In this document: piece after piece, positions 49,216 through 57,586 of the stretch | How positions within the stretch are numbered: position 1 is the first letter of the stretch | Layout of the letters: each line of letters opens with the position of its first letter | DNA from: Nibricoccus aquaticus | Lineage (GTDB): Bacteria; Verrucomicrobiota; Verrucomicrobiia; Opitutales; Opitutaceae | Length of the DNA: 64,000 nt | Assembly: GCF_002310495.1 (NCBI RefSeq) | Contig: NZ_CP023344.1 | Location: 3,923,501 to 3,987,500, forward strand | Reading direction: 5' to 3' | The notes under the pieces: model-generated | The model's database searches: none | Told to the model about the DNA's origin: nothing | What the model saw: only the letters and a program-made list of their open reading frames with translations | Position numbers and translations under genes: made by a program

Positions 49216-49905
49216 TTATTCGACGAGCCGATAGCCGATGCCAGACTCGGTTTTAAGGTGCTGCGGAGAGTTGGGCGTGGCTTCCAGTTTTTGACGGAGA
49301 TGAGTCATCACGACGCGGAGGTAGTGCGTGTTTTCCTCGGCGTTGGGGCCCCAGACTTCGCGGAGGATCTGGCGGTGGGTGACGACTTTTCCGCGGTGCT
49401 GCACGAGGAGGGCGAAGAGGGCGTACTCTTTGGCGGTGAGATGGATTTCGGCGTTAGCGCGGCGGATGGTGCGAGCGGCGCGGTCGATCTCGATGTCGCC
49501 GATGCGGGCTATCGCGGGCTCGTTGGTGAGCTGGGTGCGGCGAAGGATGGCGCGGACGCGGGCGAGGAGTTCGCGTCCGTTGAAAGGTTTGGTGAGGTAG
49601 TCGTCGGCTCCCGCATCGAGCGCGGCGATTTTATCGTCTTCGCCTTCGCGGACGGAGAGGACGAGGACGGGGACGCGGGACCAGTCGCGGAGGCGGCGGA
49701 TGACTTCGGTGCCGTCGAGATCGGGAAGGCCGAGATCGAGGATGACGCCGTCGGGGGTCTGGTGGGCGATTTCCTGGAGGCCGAGGGTGGCGGTATCGGT
49801 TTCGCGGACACGGTAGCCGCCGCCTTCGAGCGTGACGCGGAGGAGACGGCGGATTTGGGGTTCGTCGTCGATGATCAGGAGCGTGCTGGTGGGTGGAGCG
49901 GACAT
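49216..49905 (-). CDS. kdpE: Response regulator KdpE
   Basis: 229 residues, OmpR/PhoB type. The receiver has LLIIDDEPQIRR, the phosphoacceptor Asp in VILDLGLPDLDG, and Lys in YLTKPFNGREL. The C-terminal winged helix has EIHLTAKEYALFALLVQH and VWGPNAEENTHYLRVVMTHLRQKLE, characteristic of KdpE. It is last in the kdp operon, separated from kdpD by 184 bp of repeat-containing DNA. A likely target is the direct repeat upstream of kdpA (57645-57661). Confidence 0.94.
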   Translation of the reverse strand: MSAPPTSTLLIIDDEPQIRRLLRVTLEGGGYRVRETDTATLGLQEIAHQTPDGVILDLGLPDLDGTEVIRRLRDWSRVPVLVLSVREGEDDKIAALDAGADDYLTKPFNGRELLARVRAILRRTQLTNEPAIARIGDIEIDRAARTIRRANAEIHLTAKEYALFALLVQHRGKVVTHRQILREVWGPNAEENTHYLRVVMTHLRQKLEATPNSPQHLKTESGIGYRLVE

Positions 49906-49940
49906 CGGAGAGTCGGAGATCGGAGTGGGAATCGGAGGAT

Positions 49941-50089: not shown

Positions 50090-52765
50090 TTACAGAGGAG
50101 GCGGAGTTTGGTGGTGTGGAAATGTAATGACGAAGCGGGTGCCCCCGGTGGTGTTTTCGGTGGCGGTGATTTCGGCGCCTTGGGCGGTGAGGAAACCGCG
50201 GACGATCGAGAGGCCGAGTCCGAGGCCGCCGGTGCGGGTAGGATTAGCGCGGGCGAATTTTTGGAAGAGTTTTTCGCGGAGTTCGGGGGAGATGCCGGGG
50301 CCGTGATCGGCGACGGTTATCCATGCGCGGGAAGAAGTGGCATCGAGGCCGGCGCTGAGGGTGATGGGAGTTGCGGGAGGGGTGTGGATGGCGGCGTTGA
50401 GGAGGAGGTTGGCGAGGGCTTGTTCGGTGAGGGCGAAGTCGGCGCGGAGGGGCGGGAGGTCGTCGGGGATTTCGATGGTGAAAGGGTGACTGGCGAGCGC
50501 GTCGCCGACGGAATCGCGGGCGGCGTTGGCGAGGTCGCGGGCGTCGCACCAGTCGAGGCGGGGTTTGAGCGCGCCGCTTTCGAGGCGGGTCTGGTCGAGG
50601 AGATTGCCGACGAGGCGGTTGAGGCGGTGGGCGGCGGAACGGCTTTCGCCGATGAGCGCGGCGCGGAGTTTTTCGTCGGTGGTGTCGGCGAGGTTTTCGA
50701 GGGAGCCGGTGATGACGGCAAGGGGGGTGCGGAGTTCGTGGGAGACGCTGTCGAGCAGGGTGCGGTGGAGTTTGTCGGAGGCGGCGAGGAGTTTTTCGCG
50801 TTCGCTGGCAGCGCGGAGGTGGTCGCGTTCGACGATGAGGGAGAGCTGGCGGGCGAAGGCGTCGAGGAGGTCGCGCTGGGCGAGGGTGAGTAGTTGATTT
50901 TCGGGCACGGCGACTACGAGAACGCCGACGGCGCGGTCTTCGCGGATGAGCGGGAGGTGAAACGCGGCGCTGCCGGGGAGGGTGTCGGTGAAGCGACCGG
51001 CGGGGCGGCGGTGGCGGAAGGCCCAGTCGGCGACGCCGCGTTCTTTTTCGTCGAGCGCGAGGGAGGCTGCGAAGTGGGGCGTGAGCGTGTCGCCGGTTTC
51101 ACCGGCGAGAAGGAGGGCGGTTTTGGCGGAGAAGAGTTCGTCGGTCTGGCGGAGGGCGGTGAAGACGGCGTCGTCGAGCGTGGAGGCGGAGGCGAGGACG
51201 CGGGTGAGCTGGAAGAGGGCGGTGGCGCGTTCTTCGCGGAGGCGCTCGTTGCGGGCCTGGGCGCGGATGCGGGCGGTGAGCTGGCCCGCGATGATGGCGA
51301 CGGCGAAGTAGGTGACGAAGAGCGCGGCGTCTTCGATTTTGTTTATCGCGAAGGTGAAGCGCGGCGGGATGAAGAGGAAATTCCAGGTGAGCGCGCTGAG
51401 GACGCCCGCGAGGAGGACGGGCCAGCGGCCGACGCGGAGGCTGAGGGCGATGACGGCGAGTAGGTAAACGAGGCCGGCGGCGAGGTAGGTGTCGGCCGGG
51501 AGCAACTGGCCGAGGAGCGTGAGGGCGGCGATGGTGCCGGCGGCGATGGCGTATTCGCGCGGTGGGCTGTGGAGCGCGGGCTCGAAGGCGCGCCAGTCGT
51601 GGCGGAGGCGGGCCTCGGGATCGGCGGGGACGACGTAGATGTCGATGTTGCCGCCGTGGCGGAGGAGTTTGTCCACGAGGGTGCCGCCGCGGAGCGTATC
51701 CAGGAAGCGGTTGCCACGGGGTTTGCCGACGACGATCTGGGTGGCGTTATGCTGGAGGGCGGTGCGGACGAGGGCGGCGGGGACGTTTTCGTCGTGCGTG
51801 AGGACGACCTCGGCGCCAAGTTCGCGGGCGAGGGCGAGGTTTTTGTCGAGGAGTTGTTGAGCGGCGGGGCTGAGCGGATCGGAGGGCTCGACGTACACGG
51901 CGAGCCAAGGTGCGCCCTGGGCGGCGGCGAGGCGGCGGGTCCAGCGGACGAGTTGCGTGGAGAAAGGGCTGGGGCCGACGGCGACGAGGAGGCGTTCGCC
52001 GCTGCGCCAGACGGTTTGTTTGGGGAGACCGGCGCGGAGTTGGCGGAGCTGGCGGTCGACGCGCTCGGCGGTGAAGCGGAGGGCGAGTTCGCGGAGGGCG
52101 GTGAGGTGGGTCTCGCGGAAGAAGTTGTCGCGGGCGGCGTCGGCGCGCGCGGAGCCGAGGTAAACTTTGCCGTCGCTCAGGCGCTCGCGGAGGGCTTCGG
52201 GGGTGAGGTCGATGAGCTCTACTTCGTCGGCGAGATCGAGGAGCGTGTCGGGGACGGTTTCGAGCTGCGGGGCGCCGGTGATCTGGCGGACGGCGTCGGC
52301 GCGGGACTCGACGTGCTGGATGTTGAGCGTCGTGAAGACGTTGATACCGGCTTCGAGGAGTTCGAGGACGTCCTGCCAGCGTTTGGTGTGGCGGGAGCCG
52401 GGGGCGTTAGTGTGGGCGAGTTCGTCGATGACGGCGAGGGCGGGACGGCGGGCGAGGAGGGCTTCGAGATCGAGTTCGGTGAGCGTGGCGCCGCGGTGGT
52501 GGATGGCTTTGCGAGGAAGAAGGACGAGGCCGGAGAGGAGGGCTTCGGTTTCGGCGCGGCCGTGGGTTTCGACGATGCCGACGAGGACGTCGATTTTATC
52601 GGCGCGGGCTTCCTGCGCGGCGCGGAGCATGGCGTAGGTTTTGCCCACGCCGGGGGACATGCCGAGGAAGACCTTGAGGTGGCCGCGACGGGAGCGGGCT
52701 TCGTCGCGGGTGAGCGCGGCGAGGAGGGCGTCGGGATCGGCGCGGTGGTTATCAGGAGAGGACAC
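50090..52765 (-). CDS. kdpD: Sensor histidine kinase KdpD
   Basis: 891 residues. The KdpD N-domain (about 25-235) has Walker-A-like GMSPGVGKT, VGIVETHGR and AVIDELAHTNAPGS. A universal-stress domain (about 255-375) is next. Four clustered TM helices lie around 400-495, then a GAF-like domain, HisKA SVSHELRTPLAVITGS near 675, and HATPase (GGLGLGLSIVRGF). It senses K+ limitation or turgor and phosphorylates KdpE. The start is a GTG inside a dispersed CACGGAG repeat; no better start is visible before the Walker motif. Confidence 0.95.
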   Translation of the reverse strand: MSSPDNHRADPDALLAALTRDEARSRRGHLKVFLGMSPGVGKTYAMLRAAQEARADKIDVLVGIVETHGRAETEALLSGLVLLPRKAIHHRGATLTELDLEALLARRPALAVIDELAHTNAPGSRHTKRWQDVLELLEAGINVFTTLNIQHVESRADAVRQITGAPQLETVPDTLLDLADEVELIDLTPEALRERLSDGKVYLGSARADAARDNFFRETHLTALRELALRFTAERVDRQLRQLRAGLPKQTVWRSGERLLVAVGPSPFSTQLVRWTRRLAAAQGAPWLAVYVEPSDPLSPAAQQLLDKNLALARELGAEVVLTHDENVPAALVRTALQHNATQIVVGKPRGNRFLDTLRGGTLVDKLLRHGGNIDIYVVPADPEARLRHDWRAFEPALHSPPREYAIAAGTIAALTLLGQLLPADTYLAAGLVYLLAVIALSLRVGRWPVLLAGVLSALTWNFLFIPPRFTFAINKIEDAALFVTYFAVAIIAGQLTARIRAQARNERLREERATALFQLTRVLASASTLDDAVFTALRQTDELFSAKTALLLAGETGDTLTPHFAASLALDEKERGVADWAFRHRRPAGRFTDTLPGSAAFHLPLIREDRAVGVLVVAVPENQLLTLAQRDLLDAFARQLSLIVERDHLRAASEREKLLAASDKLHRTLLDSVSHELRTPLAVITGSLENLADTTDEKLRAALIGESRSAAHRLNRLVGNLLDQTRLESGALKPRLDWCDARDLANAARDSVGDALASHPFTIEIPDDLPPLRADFALTEQALANLLLNAAIHTPPATPITLSAGLDATSSRAWITVADHGPGISPELREKLFQKFARANPTRTGGLGLGLSIVRGFLTAQGAEITATENTTGGTRFVITFPHHQTPPPL

Positions 52766-52962: not shown

Positions 52963-53526
52963 TCAGAGGGTTTTGTCGAGGGCGAGGTTTAGGCGGAGGA
53001 CGTTAACGCGGGCGGGGGTGAGGTGGCCGCCTTCGGTATGGCGGGCGAGGAGGGTGTCGAGCGTGGTGAGTTGTTGTGTAGTTAGGTTTCGGGCACGGGC
53101 GACGCGGGAGAGCTGGAGACGGGCGTTGGCGAGGGAGATGTGCGGATCGAGGCCGCTGCCGCTGGAGGTGATGGCGTCGGAAGGGAGTGGAGCGGTGGGG
53201 GCGAGTTGGTTGAAGGTGCGGTAGTCGGTGGACGCGGTGATGACGGAGGCGGCGAGTTTCGCGCTGGTCCAAGGCTGGTTGCTGGCGCCGGAGGGGACGG
53301 TGGCGTAGTCGCCAGCGGAGGGGCGTGGCTGGAAGTAACGCGGGTCGGGATTTTTTTGCGCGAGGAGGGCGGAGCCGATGATGCGGTTGTTGTGCGTGAG
53401 GAGGGAGCCCTCGGCGGCGTTGCGGAAGAAGGCGTGGCCGGTGGCCCAGATGGCGAGTGGGTAGAGGGCGCCGGTGAGGAGCGTGAGGAGGGCGAAGAGG
53501 CGGAGAGATTGGAGAAAAGTTTTCAT
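52963..53526 (-). CDS. kdpC: K+-transporting ATPase subunit KdpC
   Basis: 187 residues. One N-terminal TM helix (LFALLTLLTGALYPLAIW) is followed by the KdpC periplasmic domain: NRIIGSALLAQ, YFQPRPSAGDYATVPSGASN, SGSGLDPHISLANARLQLSRVA. KdpC stabilises the KdpA-KdpB complex. The gene is 40 bp downstream of a small membrane-protein gene and 197 bp upstream of kdpD. Confidence 0.95.
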   Translation of the reverse strand: MKTFLQSLRLFALLTLLTGALYPLAIWATGHAFFRNAAEGSLLTHNNRIIGSALLAQKNPDPRYFQPRPSAGDYATVPSGASNQPWTSAKLAASVITASTDYRTFNQLAPTAPLPSDAITSSGSGLDPHISLANARLQLSRVARARNLTTQQLTTLDTLLARHTEGGHLTPARVNVLRLNLALDKTL

Positions 53527-53566: not shown

Positions 53567-53701
53567 TTAGCGGGCGTTGGTGGAGGGCCAGTCGACGCGG
53601 GAGTCGGGTTCTTTGTGGTTGGACGGGTCGAGCAACCAGAAGAGGACGGCGATGCCGGCGAGGAGGAGGAAGACGATCAGGAATGCGCGCTGGTCGCGCA
53701 T
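53567..53701 (-). CDS. 44-residue single-span membrane protein in the kdp operon
   Basis: Between kdpB and kdpC an ATG (53701) preceded by GAGG with 6-nt spacing opens a 44-codon frame ending in TAA. The peptide begins MRDQRAFLIVFLLLAGIAVL, continues FWLLDPSNHKEPD and ends VDWPSTNAR. It is one TM helix with a short polar tail. KdpF, the known small Kdp subunit, is normally encoded before kdpA and has little tail, so this is either a relocated KdpF-like subunit or a different accessory peptide. Spacing to kdpB is 35 bp and to kdpC 40 bp. Confidence 0.7.
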   Translation of the reverse strand: MRDQRAFLIVFLLLAGIAVLFWLLDPSNHKEPDSRVDWPSTNAR

Positions 53702-53736
53702 CGGTTTCCTCGCCGAGGGAGGATGGGCGGAGGGTT

Positions 53737-55851
53737 TCATGCGAGGTGGAGCGCCACGAGGGCGACGTCGATGAGTTTGATGCCGATGAACGGGGCGATG
53801 AGGCCGCCGAGGCCGTAGACGAGGAGATTGCGGCGGAGGAGGGCGGCGGCGGGTTGCGCGCGGTAGGCAACGCCGCGGAGGGCGAGCGGGACGAGGGCGA
53901 TGATGATGAGGGCGTTGAAGATCACGGCGCTGAGGATCGCGCTTTGCGGGGAGTGCAGGGCCATGACGTTGAGCGCGGCGAGCGGGCCGGTGGTCGTGCC
54001 GGCGAGCGCGTAGAGAGCGGCGAAGATCGCGGGGATGATGGCGAAGTATTTGGCGACGTCGTTGGCGATGGAGAAGGTCGTGAGCGAGCCGCGCGTCATG
54101 AGGAGTTGTTTCCCGATCTCGACGATCTCGATGAGCTTGGTCGGGTTGCTGTCGAGATCGACCATGTTGCCGGCTTCGCGGGCGGCTTGCGTGCCGGTGT
54201 TCATGGCGACGCCGACGTCGGCTTGCGCGAGCGCGGGGGCGTCGTTGGTGCCGTCGCCGGTCATGGCGACGAGGTGGCCGCGGGCCTGTTCATCGCGGAT
54301 GCGCTGGAGTTTCATCTCGGGCGTGGCCTGGGCGAGGAAGTCATCAACACCTGCTTCGGCGGCGATGGCGGCAGCGGTGAGCGGGTTGTCGCCCGTGATC
54401 ATGACGGTGCGGATACCCATGCGGCGGAGTTCGCCGAAGCGTTCTTTGATGCCGCCTTTGACGACGTCTTTGAGGTAGATGACGCCGAGGATGGCGGGGC
54501 CGTCGGCGACGACGAGGGGAGTGCCGCCGGCTTTGGACACGCGTTCGACGGCGGCGGAGATTTCGGCGGGGAAGCGGCCGCCTTGGGATTCGACCCAAGC
54601 ACGGATGTTGTCGGCGGCGCCTTTGCGGATGGAGCGGGTGGGAGTGCGGGGTGGGGGCACCCCGCCTACATCGGAGGTGAGATCGACGCCGCTCATGCGG
54701 GTTTGCGCGGTGAAGGGGACGAAGGTGGCGTGAGGCTCGGCGACGTCGCGCTGGCGGAGGTTGAATTTTTCCTTGGCGAGGACGGCGATGCTGCGGCCTT
54801 CGGGGGTTTCGTCGGCGAGGGAGGCGAGTTGGGCGGCGTCGGCGAGTTTTTCGGCGGATACGCCGGGGGCGGGGATGAACTCGGAGGCCTGGCGGTTACC
54901 GAGGGTGATGGTGCCGGTTTTGTCGAGGAGGAGGACGTCGATGTCGCCTGCGGCTTCGACGGCGCGGCCGGAGGTGGCAATGACGTTGCGGCGGATGAGG
55001 CGGTCGATGCCGCTGATGCCGATGGCGCTGAGGAGTCCGCCGATGGTGGTCGGGATGAGACAGACGAAGAGCGAAACGAGGACGGGGACGGACGTGTCGA
55101 TGGAGTTGGGTTGTCCGGCGAGGCGTTCAGAGAATCCGGCGAAGAAAGGGAGCGTGCCGACGACGGCGAGGAAGATGAGCGTCATGGCGACGAGGAGGAT
55201 GCCGAGGGCGATCTCGTTGGGCGTGCGCTGACGGGCGGCGCCTTCGACGAGGCTGATCATGCGGTCGAGAAAGCCGCCGCCGGGCTCGACGGTGACTCGG
55301 ATGACGACGCGGTCGCTGAGCACGCGGGTGCCACCGGTGACCGCGCTGCGGTCGCCGCCGCTCTCGCGTATCACAGGCGCGGATTCGCCAGTGATGGCGG
55401 ACTCGTCCACGCTGGCGATGCCCTCGATGACTTCGCCGTCGGCGGGGATGACATCGCCGGTTTCGCAGACGACGGTGTCGCCTTTGCGGAGATCGGGGGC
55501 GGCGACACGTTCCTCGGTGCCGGACTTGGCGAGGCGGCGGGCGAAGGTTTGGGATCGGGCGCGGCGGAGGGAGTCGGCCTGGGCTTTGCCGCGGCCTTCG
55601 GCGAGGGCTTCGGCGAAGTTGGCGAAGAGAACGGTGAACCAGAGCCAGGCGGTGATCTGGACGGTGAAGAAGGAGAGCGAGCCGGAGGCGGCGTCGCGGA
55701 GGGCGACGAGGGTGACGGCGACCGCGCCGAGAGCGGTGGCGAAGATGACGGGGTTTCGCCAGAGGGCGAGCGGGTCGAGTTTGCGGAAGGCGTCGAGGGT
55801 GGCGCGGCGGAGGAGCGGGAGGTTCCAGGAGGAGTTGGCGGGAGATTTCAT
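53737..55851 (-). CDS. kdpB: K+-transporting P-type ATPase KdpB
   Basis: 704 residues from ATG 55851, about 20 longer than E. coli KdpB. The phosphorylation motif DKTGTIT is at about 310; ITGESAPV and [18 protein letters not shown] are the A- and P-domain motifs. In the nucleotide-binding domain, after TRMSGVDL, an extra stretch [13 protein letters not shown] appears before [10 protein letters not shown] (about residues 391-404). Its DNA is a palindrome (54641-54669), so it looks like an in-frame insertion. ATP hydrolysis here drives K+ uptake through KdpA. Confidence 0.95.
54641..54669. repeat. REP-like palindrome inserted in frame in kdpB
   Basis: The minus strand begins GTAGGCGGGGTG and continues CCCCCACCCCGCAC. 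GCGGGGTG and CACCCCGC form an 8-bp stem. The GTAGG head and following GC-rich stem resemble the intergenic REP-like elements (GTAGGAGCGG). It encodes the extra [10 protein letters not shown] residues of KdpB. Confidence 0.65.
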
Positions 55852-55900
55852 GAGAGGATGATTCACCGCGGAGGACGCGGAGTCGGATGATGATTCCGTT

Positions 55901-57586
55901 TTAGAATGTGCGGCCGGTGGTGAGGAGGAGGTGTTCGAGGATTGGGCCGAGGGTGAGCGCCGGGAAGTAGGTGAGGGCAACGACCACGATGATCACACCA
56001 CTGAGGAGGACGGCGAAGAGGGGGCCGTCGGTCGGGAAGGTGCCGCTGGAGGGCGGGGTGATTTTTTTCACGGCCATGCGTCCGGCGAAGGCGAGGACGG
56101 GGATGATCACGCCGAAACGGCCAATGAGCATCGCGAGCGCGCCGCCCCACGTGTAGAGATCGCCGGTGGCGGTGAGGCTGCCGAAGGCGGAGCCGTTGTT
56201 GTTGGCCATGCTGCCCCAGGCGTAGAGAATCTCGGTGAGGGCGTGAGGACCGGCGCTGCCGACGGCGGAGCGGCCGGTCTCGGTGGCGAAAGAAAGGGCG
56301 CAGCCGAGCAGGACGGCGGCGCAGGGAAGCAGGGCGGCGAGCGCGGCCATGCGGATTTCAAAGGCTTCGATTTTTTTACCGAGGTATTCGGGGGTGCGGC
56401 CGACCATGAGACCGGCGAGGAAGACGGTGAGGACGATCATCATGACCATGCCGTAGAGACCGGCGCCGACGCCGCCGAAGATGATTTCGCCGAGGAGCAT
56501 GTTGAGCAGCGCGATGCCGCCGGAGAGCGGGGAGAGCGAAGCGTGCATGGCGTTGACCGCACCGCAGGAGACGACGGTGGTGATATTGGCGAAGAGCATC
56601 GTCGGGACGATGCCGATACGCGTTTCCTTGCCCTCCATCGCGAGCGTGGCGGCCTGGGGTGAGGAGAGTTCGCTCCAGAGAGAGAGGCCGATCGCGGTGA
56701 CGAGGAAGAACGTCATCACGCCGTAGATGACCCAGGCGTGGCGGCGTGCGCCGGTGAGCAGGCCCCACGCATATACGCACGCGGCGGGGATGAGGATGAT
56801 CGTGAAAGTTTCCAGGAAGTTGGAGAAGGGCGTGGGGTTTTCGAACGGGTGGGCGGAGTTGATGCCGAAGAAGCCGCCGCCGTTGGTGCCGAGTTGTTTG
56901 ATGGCGATCTGCGACGCGGCGGGGCCGAGCGGGATGACTTGTTCGGTGCCGGCGAGCGTGGTGGCAGTGGCGTAAGGCGCGAAGGACATGACGACGCCCT
57001 GGGTGACGAGGACGACAGCGAGGACGAACGAGAGCGGGAGCAGCACGTAGAGCGTGGTGCGGACGAGGTCGGCCCAGAAATTGCCGAGGCCGCGGGCGGA
57101 GTGTCGGGAGAAACCGCGGGCGAGCGCGGCGAGGACGGCGAGGCCGGTGGCGGCGCTGAGAAAATTTTGGACGCCGAGGCCGGCCATTTGCGTGAAGTAG
57201 CTGAGCGAGGCTTCGCCGGAATAGGCCTGCCAGTTGGTGTTGGTCATGAACGACACGGCGGTGTTCACGGCGACGCCTAGCGGGACGGCGGGAAAGTTTT
57301 GCGGATTGAGCGGCAGGTGAGCTTGCAGGAGTTGAAGCGTGAGTACGGCGAGCGCTCCGAGGAGGTTGAAGAGAACGAGCGCAAGCGCGTAGCTGCGCCA
57401 GGTCATGTCTTCGTCGGGTCGGACGCCGGCGATGCGGTAGAGAATTTTTTCGACGGGACGCAGCCAGCCGAGCCAGCGGGGCGGTTCGCCTTGGAAAGTG
57501 TTGGCGAGCCAACGGCCGAGGAGTGGCGTGCTGGCAGCGAGGAGGAGAAAGAAGAGCGCGAGATAGGCGATGTCGGCGGCGTTCAT
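55901..57586 (-). CDS. kdpA: K+-transporting ATPase subunit KdpA
   Basis: 561 residues with about ten TM segments. KdpA signatures: [40 protein letters not shown] (selectivity-filter region), [19 protein letters not shown] and [17 protein letters not shown]. It is the K+ channel-like subunit that hands ions to KdpB. It is first in the operon. A direct repeat and a -10-like hexamer lie upstream. Confidence 0.96.

Follow-up and report, generated by a model that had tools for sequence, protein, structure and literature searches.

Kdp is the textbook K+ pump and is described as KdpFABC. SafA and MgrB act on PhoQ, and a gene named kdpG reportedly lies between kdpB and kdpC in Anabaena (kdpABGCD). 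According to the excerpted text of one report, KdpF stabilizes KdpABC in vitro, and KdpF of M. bovis BCG binds KdpD in a two-hybrid assay, with no major effect on kdp regulation (PMC3618439). MgtS, MgtR and MgtU are described, in an excerpt of a review article, as small membrane proteins that control the turnover of the P-type ATPases MgtA/MgtB (PMC10710835).

The kdp locus analyzed here lies in a 64-kb stretch of DNA ("the window"), taken from the genome of an Opitutaceae-like member of the Verrucomicrobiota, represented by a 4.73-Mb single contig. The gene order is kdpA-kdpB-ORF-kdpC-kdpD-kdpE, all on the minus strand, with kdpA at 55901..57586 (PF03814; no kdpF upstream), kdpB at 53737..55851 (TIGR01497), kdpC at 52963..53526 (PF02669), kdpD at 50090..52765 (PF02702; GTG start) and a kdpE-type response regulator at 49216..49905 (profile scan). 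The unnamed ORF is almost certainly a real gene. Judged by sequence comparison, the family that it represents (S1) is previously unrecognized and lineage-restricted.

The locus displays two further features. Intergenic repeats of the CACAGAGG-type occur in the window near 49940 and 52770, and repeats of this type occupy the kdpB-kdpC gaps of L036, L038 and L041, relatives that lack the peptide. A 735-aa antisense ORF (53683-55890, plus strand) lies opposite kdpB and is probably an effect of GC-rich codon use.

The open reading frame and its predicted product

The gap between kdpB and kdpC measures 210 bp and is filled by the ORF on the minus strand. The sequence-only reading had assigned to it a 44-residue membrane peptide, starting at an ATG behind a Shine-Dalgarno sequence; the corresponding segment, 53567..53701 (-), indeed translates to the 44-aa MRDQRAFLIVFLLLAGIAVLFWLLDPSNHKEPDSRVDWPSTNAR, and a Shine-Dalgarno-like GAGGA, read from the sequence, is located at 53707..53711 (-), five bases ahead of the ATG at 53701. 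There is, however, an upstream in-frame ATG at 53740, which overlaps the kdpB stop codon as ATGA and gives a 57-aa form (53567..53740, minus strand). The residues that precede the internal Met are alike in homologs (SARKPM-RDQ in the window, KARRPMPRDQ in L051, PPRQMPRNQ in L164), and inspection by eye of nine homologs revealed a GAGGA-like stretch at matching spacing before the start in none of them. For these reasons we prefer the longer form, coupled to kdpB: the ORF proposed earlier stands, while the likely product is 57 aa long and the 44-aa form represents an internal start.

As the sequence-only reading had proposed, the product is predicted to comprise a single hydrophobic helix with a tail. 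AlphaFold predicts one helix (residues 15-37) flanked by tails of lower confidence, and the predicted transmembrane helix spans residues 19-37 (53630..53686). Four basic residues are found ahead of the helix, and the 20-residue tail, which contains 2 K/R and 4 D/E in its first 15 positions, carries the SR[VI]xWP motif (SRVDWP in the window, residues 47-52, 53585..53602). The basic residues before the helix and the charges of the tail make an N-in/C-out topology likely under the positive-inside rule, hence the 57-aa product would cross the inner membrane once, with its basic N-terminus inside and the SR[VI]xWP tail outside. KdpC has the same orientation.

Profile and PDB searches identified no Pfam, NCBIfam or PDB family that covers S1. 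The profile scans reported a resemblance to FixQ and SecE (E-values 0.06 and 0.058), which we judged to be hydrophobic-segment noise, and the 13 PDB matches (best E-value 0.66) were rejected as relatives. Among the literature matches listed, the titles and the beginnings of abstracts contained no account of such a kdp-linked peptide.

Conservation and distribution of the S1 family

The survey covered 74 loci from the family, the order and the phylum (L035-L108), 55 named loci (examined by ORF listing; several of their contigs recur among the family loci) and another 33 loci of the family. Many family loci contain single-helix ORFs of ~47-72 aa, either between kdpB and kdpC or after kdpC. S1 members occupy the same kdpB-kdpC site in three other genomes (L040, L164 and L109/L173, the last two labels denoting one genome), and homologs were found just after kdpC in several further genomes. 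In the alignment of ten S1 sequences, L27, S47, R48, W51 and P52 are invariant and the helix is followed by SR[VI]xWP in every row, while the weaker members G016 and G024 exhibit altered tails. The pairwise scores of the window peptide against L109, L164, L040 and L051 were each reached by none of 5000 shuffles that preserved the composition of the N-terminus, the helix and the tail.

The dN/dS test suggested in the sequence-only reading came out in favor of the frame. In the codon model, omega was 0.242 on both 6 and 10 S1 sequences and omega=1 was worse by 2dlnL of 30.1 and 58.8, respectively, with the reservation that the alignments were protein-guided and the sequences diverged, which can bias omega downward. 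Third codon positions were the most variable (0.496 versus 0.411 and 0.276, five sequences). On this sequence evidence, the S1 frame is under purifying selection. A frame broken in close relatives had been named as the finding that would count against the peptide; among the genomes compared, none of which is of the same genus, all 10 aligned homologs have an uninterrupted frame, but the gene is absent from L036, L037 and L038, which are the nearest relatives with regard to the pump.

KdpC was found in 58 of the 252 family genomes, and the loci of all 58 were collected. Together, the profiles of S1 and of two similar peptide groups, S2 and S3 (see below), match (E<=0.05) in 26 of these 58 genomes, and the S1 profile alone in 13, the profiles having been built from the very loci later scanned. 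The three profiles also match in G688 and G774, where the contig carries kdpD only, and in none of 42 out-of-family kdp loci (43 were collected; L066 was left out). When the S1 profile was run over the 252 whole genomes, 18 of the 19 matches with E<=1e-4 fell in kdp loci (8 of 9 if the profile's own 10 rows are subtracted); another 19 matches were weaker (E from 1.3e-4 to 0.01), and three of these fall within ~3 kb of kdpC (G120, G773 and G098). In 387 genomes of the phylum, two weak matches were obtained outside the family (E-values 2e-5 and 3e-5), one of them with stops. The lone strong match away from kdp, G083:C1:443326, immediately precedes a Gcw_chp-family gene.

The S1 gene is accessory and patchily kept. 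Eleven loci share the window's pump type (KdpA >=73%), of which four possess S1 (L035, L040, L164 and L173), L039 possesses a membrane ORF of no significant similarity, and six have none. Presence and absence require 14 changes on the KdpD tree as well as on the KdpB tree, the mean for shuffled labels being 14.5; these trees comprise 47 labeled loci, where "no" denotes no profile match, with L176, L067 and L194 dropped for short sequences and loci with two pump sets excluded. As regards the gene and its linkage to kdp, the proposal of a putative new Kdp accessory subunit is supported by the conserved tail, the low omega and the concentration of the strong matches in kdp loci. The 55-aa membrane ORF that L039 carries in the same gap was left uncounted, as 477 of 5000 shuffles scored as well and it was absent from the matches of the family search; in a phmmer comparison among the 25 collected peptides, it pairs with L063 (E-value 1.5e-6) and L051 (7e-5).

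Two other explanations concern the nature of the ORF. One is that it arose by chance, or is a translated spacer with no function beyond coupling translation of kdpC to that of kdpB; this would agree with the ATGA overlap and with the lack of a recognizable homolog in the nearest pump relatives. Length by itself is unremarkable, since 573 of 5000 dinucleotide shuffles of the gap produced a closed ORF, in the sense direction, of 44 aa or more, but none of the 5000 gave such an ORF with hydropathy >=2.0, which makes the membrane segment remarkable. With the conserved protein tail, an omega of 0.24 and homologs at a different site added to these shuffle tests, we rejected the chance ORF and regard this explanation as very improbable; moreover, the 40 bases between the ORF stop and kdpC would make the ORF a poor coupler. 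The other explanation, a relocated KdpF with an added tail, had been offered in the sequence-only reading. KdpF is likewise a single-pass membrane peptide of the kdp operon, and the window genome has no other match to KdpF (PF09604). Yet KdpF is 27-30 aa long, encoded upstream of kdpA and has a PEKF-like end, whereas the window peptide is 57 aa long, encoded beside kdpC and has the SR[VI]xWP tail, with no match to PF09604 or TIGR02115 at E<=10. A KdpF profile made from the collected loci matched all 8 loci of the second pump type (type 2) submitted to it. It matched nothing in the 64-kb window and no member of a set of 13 distinct loci whose pump is of the window's type or close to it (L041 and L172 are cut off upstream of kdpA); several of these 13 lack the S1 peptide too. 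In L042, L043, L049, L051, L053 and L063, S1 members reside in type-2 operons alongside an ordinary 27-aa KdpF, so that S1 is distinct from KdpF. Given the absence of a profile match, this coexistence and the position between kdpB and kdpC, we discarded the relocated KdpF, to which we assign hardly any credence.

Similar peptides and neighboring genes

The S2 group exhibits GxxLGxLG followed by HPRxLYP, and the S3 group exhibits LALxDPSC. Like S1, both consist of kdpC-adjacent, single-helix peptides with partly similar tails, but the combination of DPSH and SRxxWP is absent from them. The hhalign probability is 95.7% for S1-S2 and 83.1% for S1-S3, while pairwise comparisons with the window peptide are weak (shuffles scoring as well: 452 of 5000 for L045, 51 for L067 and 9 for L117), and S2 and S3 are joined to S1 by profile comparison only. 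For S2, omega was 0.39-0.43 (2dlnL 8.7 and 16.3). L180, a distant S2 relative, matches in two frames. The S2 peptide of L150 (PMEV01000018.1), titled Bryobacterales, is identical to that of the Opitutia contig L151, and the former is probably a misbinned contig. A third type of kdp operon (L056, 14394-17106; L184, 687-3388) has an S2 peptide downstream, in the order response-regulator-like ORF, further ORF, protein-kinase-like ORF (assigned by eye), S2 peptide. After kdpC in L068, L168 and L169 we observed single-helix ORFs of ~51-64 aa with a PPPRLDTKLPSAS-like tail, unmatched by the S1-S3 profiles, which possibly constitute a fourth peptide group.

Several neighboring genes deserve mention. 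The copy in G083 (443326-443457 of contig C1; L227) is a second S1 copy, and the first residues of the adjacent Gcw_chp-family protein (a family that we take to be porin-like), MKVLFQTLRSL, resemble the N-terminus of KdpC. Downstream of the S1 copy in L047/L229 (G023:C106:51894-57124) come a gene for a 712-aa protein of the amino-acid permease family, an ORF judged by eye to be phosphatase-like, and kdpD. In L043, L044, L052, L053, L063 and L228, the interval between kdpC and kdpD encodes a protein of ~123-134 aa that has a membrane segment in its C-terminal part and an RDTFSxxRKxCFxxELAAEGFI-like sequence; neither of the two that were scanned matched Pfam significantly. Finally, the type-2 operons L042, L043, L045, L049, L051, L053 and L063 encode, before kdpF and upstream of kdpA, a second membrane peptide of ~28-30 aa (AFFxxxxAYAxFCEKVR-like), similar to ones in other phyla; a scan of one example against Pfam found no match, and one against NCBIfam none of relevance.

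Pump or sensor as the partner

For the analysis of genomic neighborhood, 32 of the 36 profile rows were taken (L228, L229, L230 and the second frame of L180 were omitted). According to a script, kdpC is a neighboring Kdp gene for 30 of these 32 members, and the other two, L048 and L170, were found by inspection between kdpC and kdpD; three of the 32 (L047, L056 and L184) are separated from kdpC by other genes and lie 2.5-4.4 kb downstream of it. In G062, three peptides accompany two pump operons on one contig, and both kdpD genes are on other contigs. The kdpC neighborhood and the arrangement in G062 lead us to favor a role with the pump, and the sequence data suggest that the peptide probably helps or tunes potassium uptake. 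About half of our confidence goes to the reading that it modulates the Kdp pump as a non-essential, single-pass membrane protein, its gene being translated with the pump genes. By analogy with what is reported of KdpF and of MgtS, MgtR and MgtU for their P-type ATPases, the peptide would most likely pack beside the pump (KdpB/KdpC) and modulate its stability or activity, and it would be dispensable for pumping. The presence of S1 in four of the 11 loci of the window's pump type and the strong match in G083 away from kdp speak against this reading. In ten S1 loci, moreover, the divergence of S1 is uncorrelated with that of KdpA, KdpB and KdpC (r 0.02, 0.12 and -0.11) and correlated with that of KdpD (Mantel r 0.48, 24 of 5000 permutations, four genes tried; partial r 0.52-0.61 when controlling for KdpA, KdpB or KdpC), a pattern that a closely fitted pump subunit would not be expected to show.

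The same correlation, which follows KdpD and not the pump, recommends a possible, although clearly less probable, alternative, namely that the peptide acts on the sensor kinase KdpD, in the way that SafA and MgrB act on PhoQ, and adjusts the induction of kdp, not the pump. KdpD is 72-78% identical among the window, L173 (where it is cut by the contig end), L164, L051 and L063, that is, across loci of two pump types between which KdpA is 50-53% identical; L051 and L063 have a type-2 pump, yet both their KdpD and their peptide are similar to the ones in L164, L173 and the window. A comparison of L035, L164 and L173 with L051 and L063 gave identities of 73-78% for KdpD and 50-53% for KdpA. The simplest reading of these sequences would be that the pump was exchanged over a conserved sensor and peptide, which would be compatible with a role with KdpD. 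In addition, several members are situated within 100 bases before kdpD, and the mycobacterial KdpF-KdpD two-hybrid interaction, as given in the excerpted report, offers a precedent (PMC3618439). On the other hand, KdpD may merely mirror host ancestry, the correlation is probably driven by the split of the ten loci into two KdpD groups, the label counts on the KdpD and KdpB trees (8 and 9 changes) do not discriminate, and the peptides of G062 sit with the pumps and with neither KdpD; in the excerpted report, overexpression of KdpF in BCG was without major effect on kdp regulation (PMC3618439). A peptide that is Kdp-linked without being Kdp-specific, namely an envelope peptide with fast turnover that these loci carry along, would account for the patchy presence, with as many changes on either tree as expected from shuffled labels, for the copy beside the Gcw_chp gene and for the copy before the amino-acid permease in G023. 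We find this unlikely, because kdp loci account for nearly all strong whole-genome matches, and even the G023 copy is situated between kdpC and kdpD. We also speculate, as a rather improbable option, that the periplasmic SR[VI]xWP tail links pump and sensor, the peptide being an adaptor that lets one sensor serve different Kdp pumps; this would agree with a peptide that follows the KdpD lineage of its host even as the pump is replaced by one of a type with only ~50% identity.

If the reading as a pump modulator, or the one as a partner of the sensor, is true, the peptide would represent a second small-protein family, an independent one located beside kdpC and marked by a conserved motif that faces outward, and a new handle on the tuning of the Kdp pump or sensor in these bacteria. 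Even a well-studied operon such as kdp can hold overlooked genes. As to the described systems, the cyanobacterial kdpG resembles the window ORF in its position, as it reportedly lies between kdpB and kdpC. MgtS, MgtR and MgtU concern a different pump and share with the modulator proposed here a working principle, control of a P-type ATPase by a small membrane protein.
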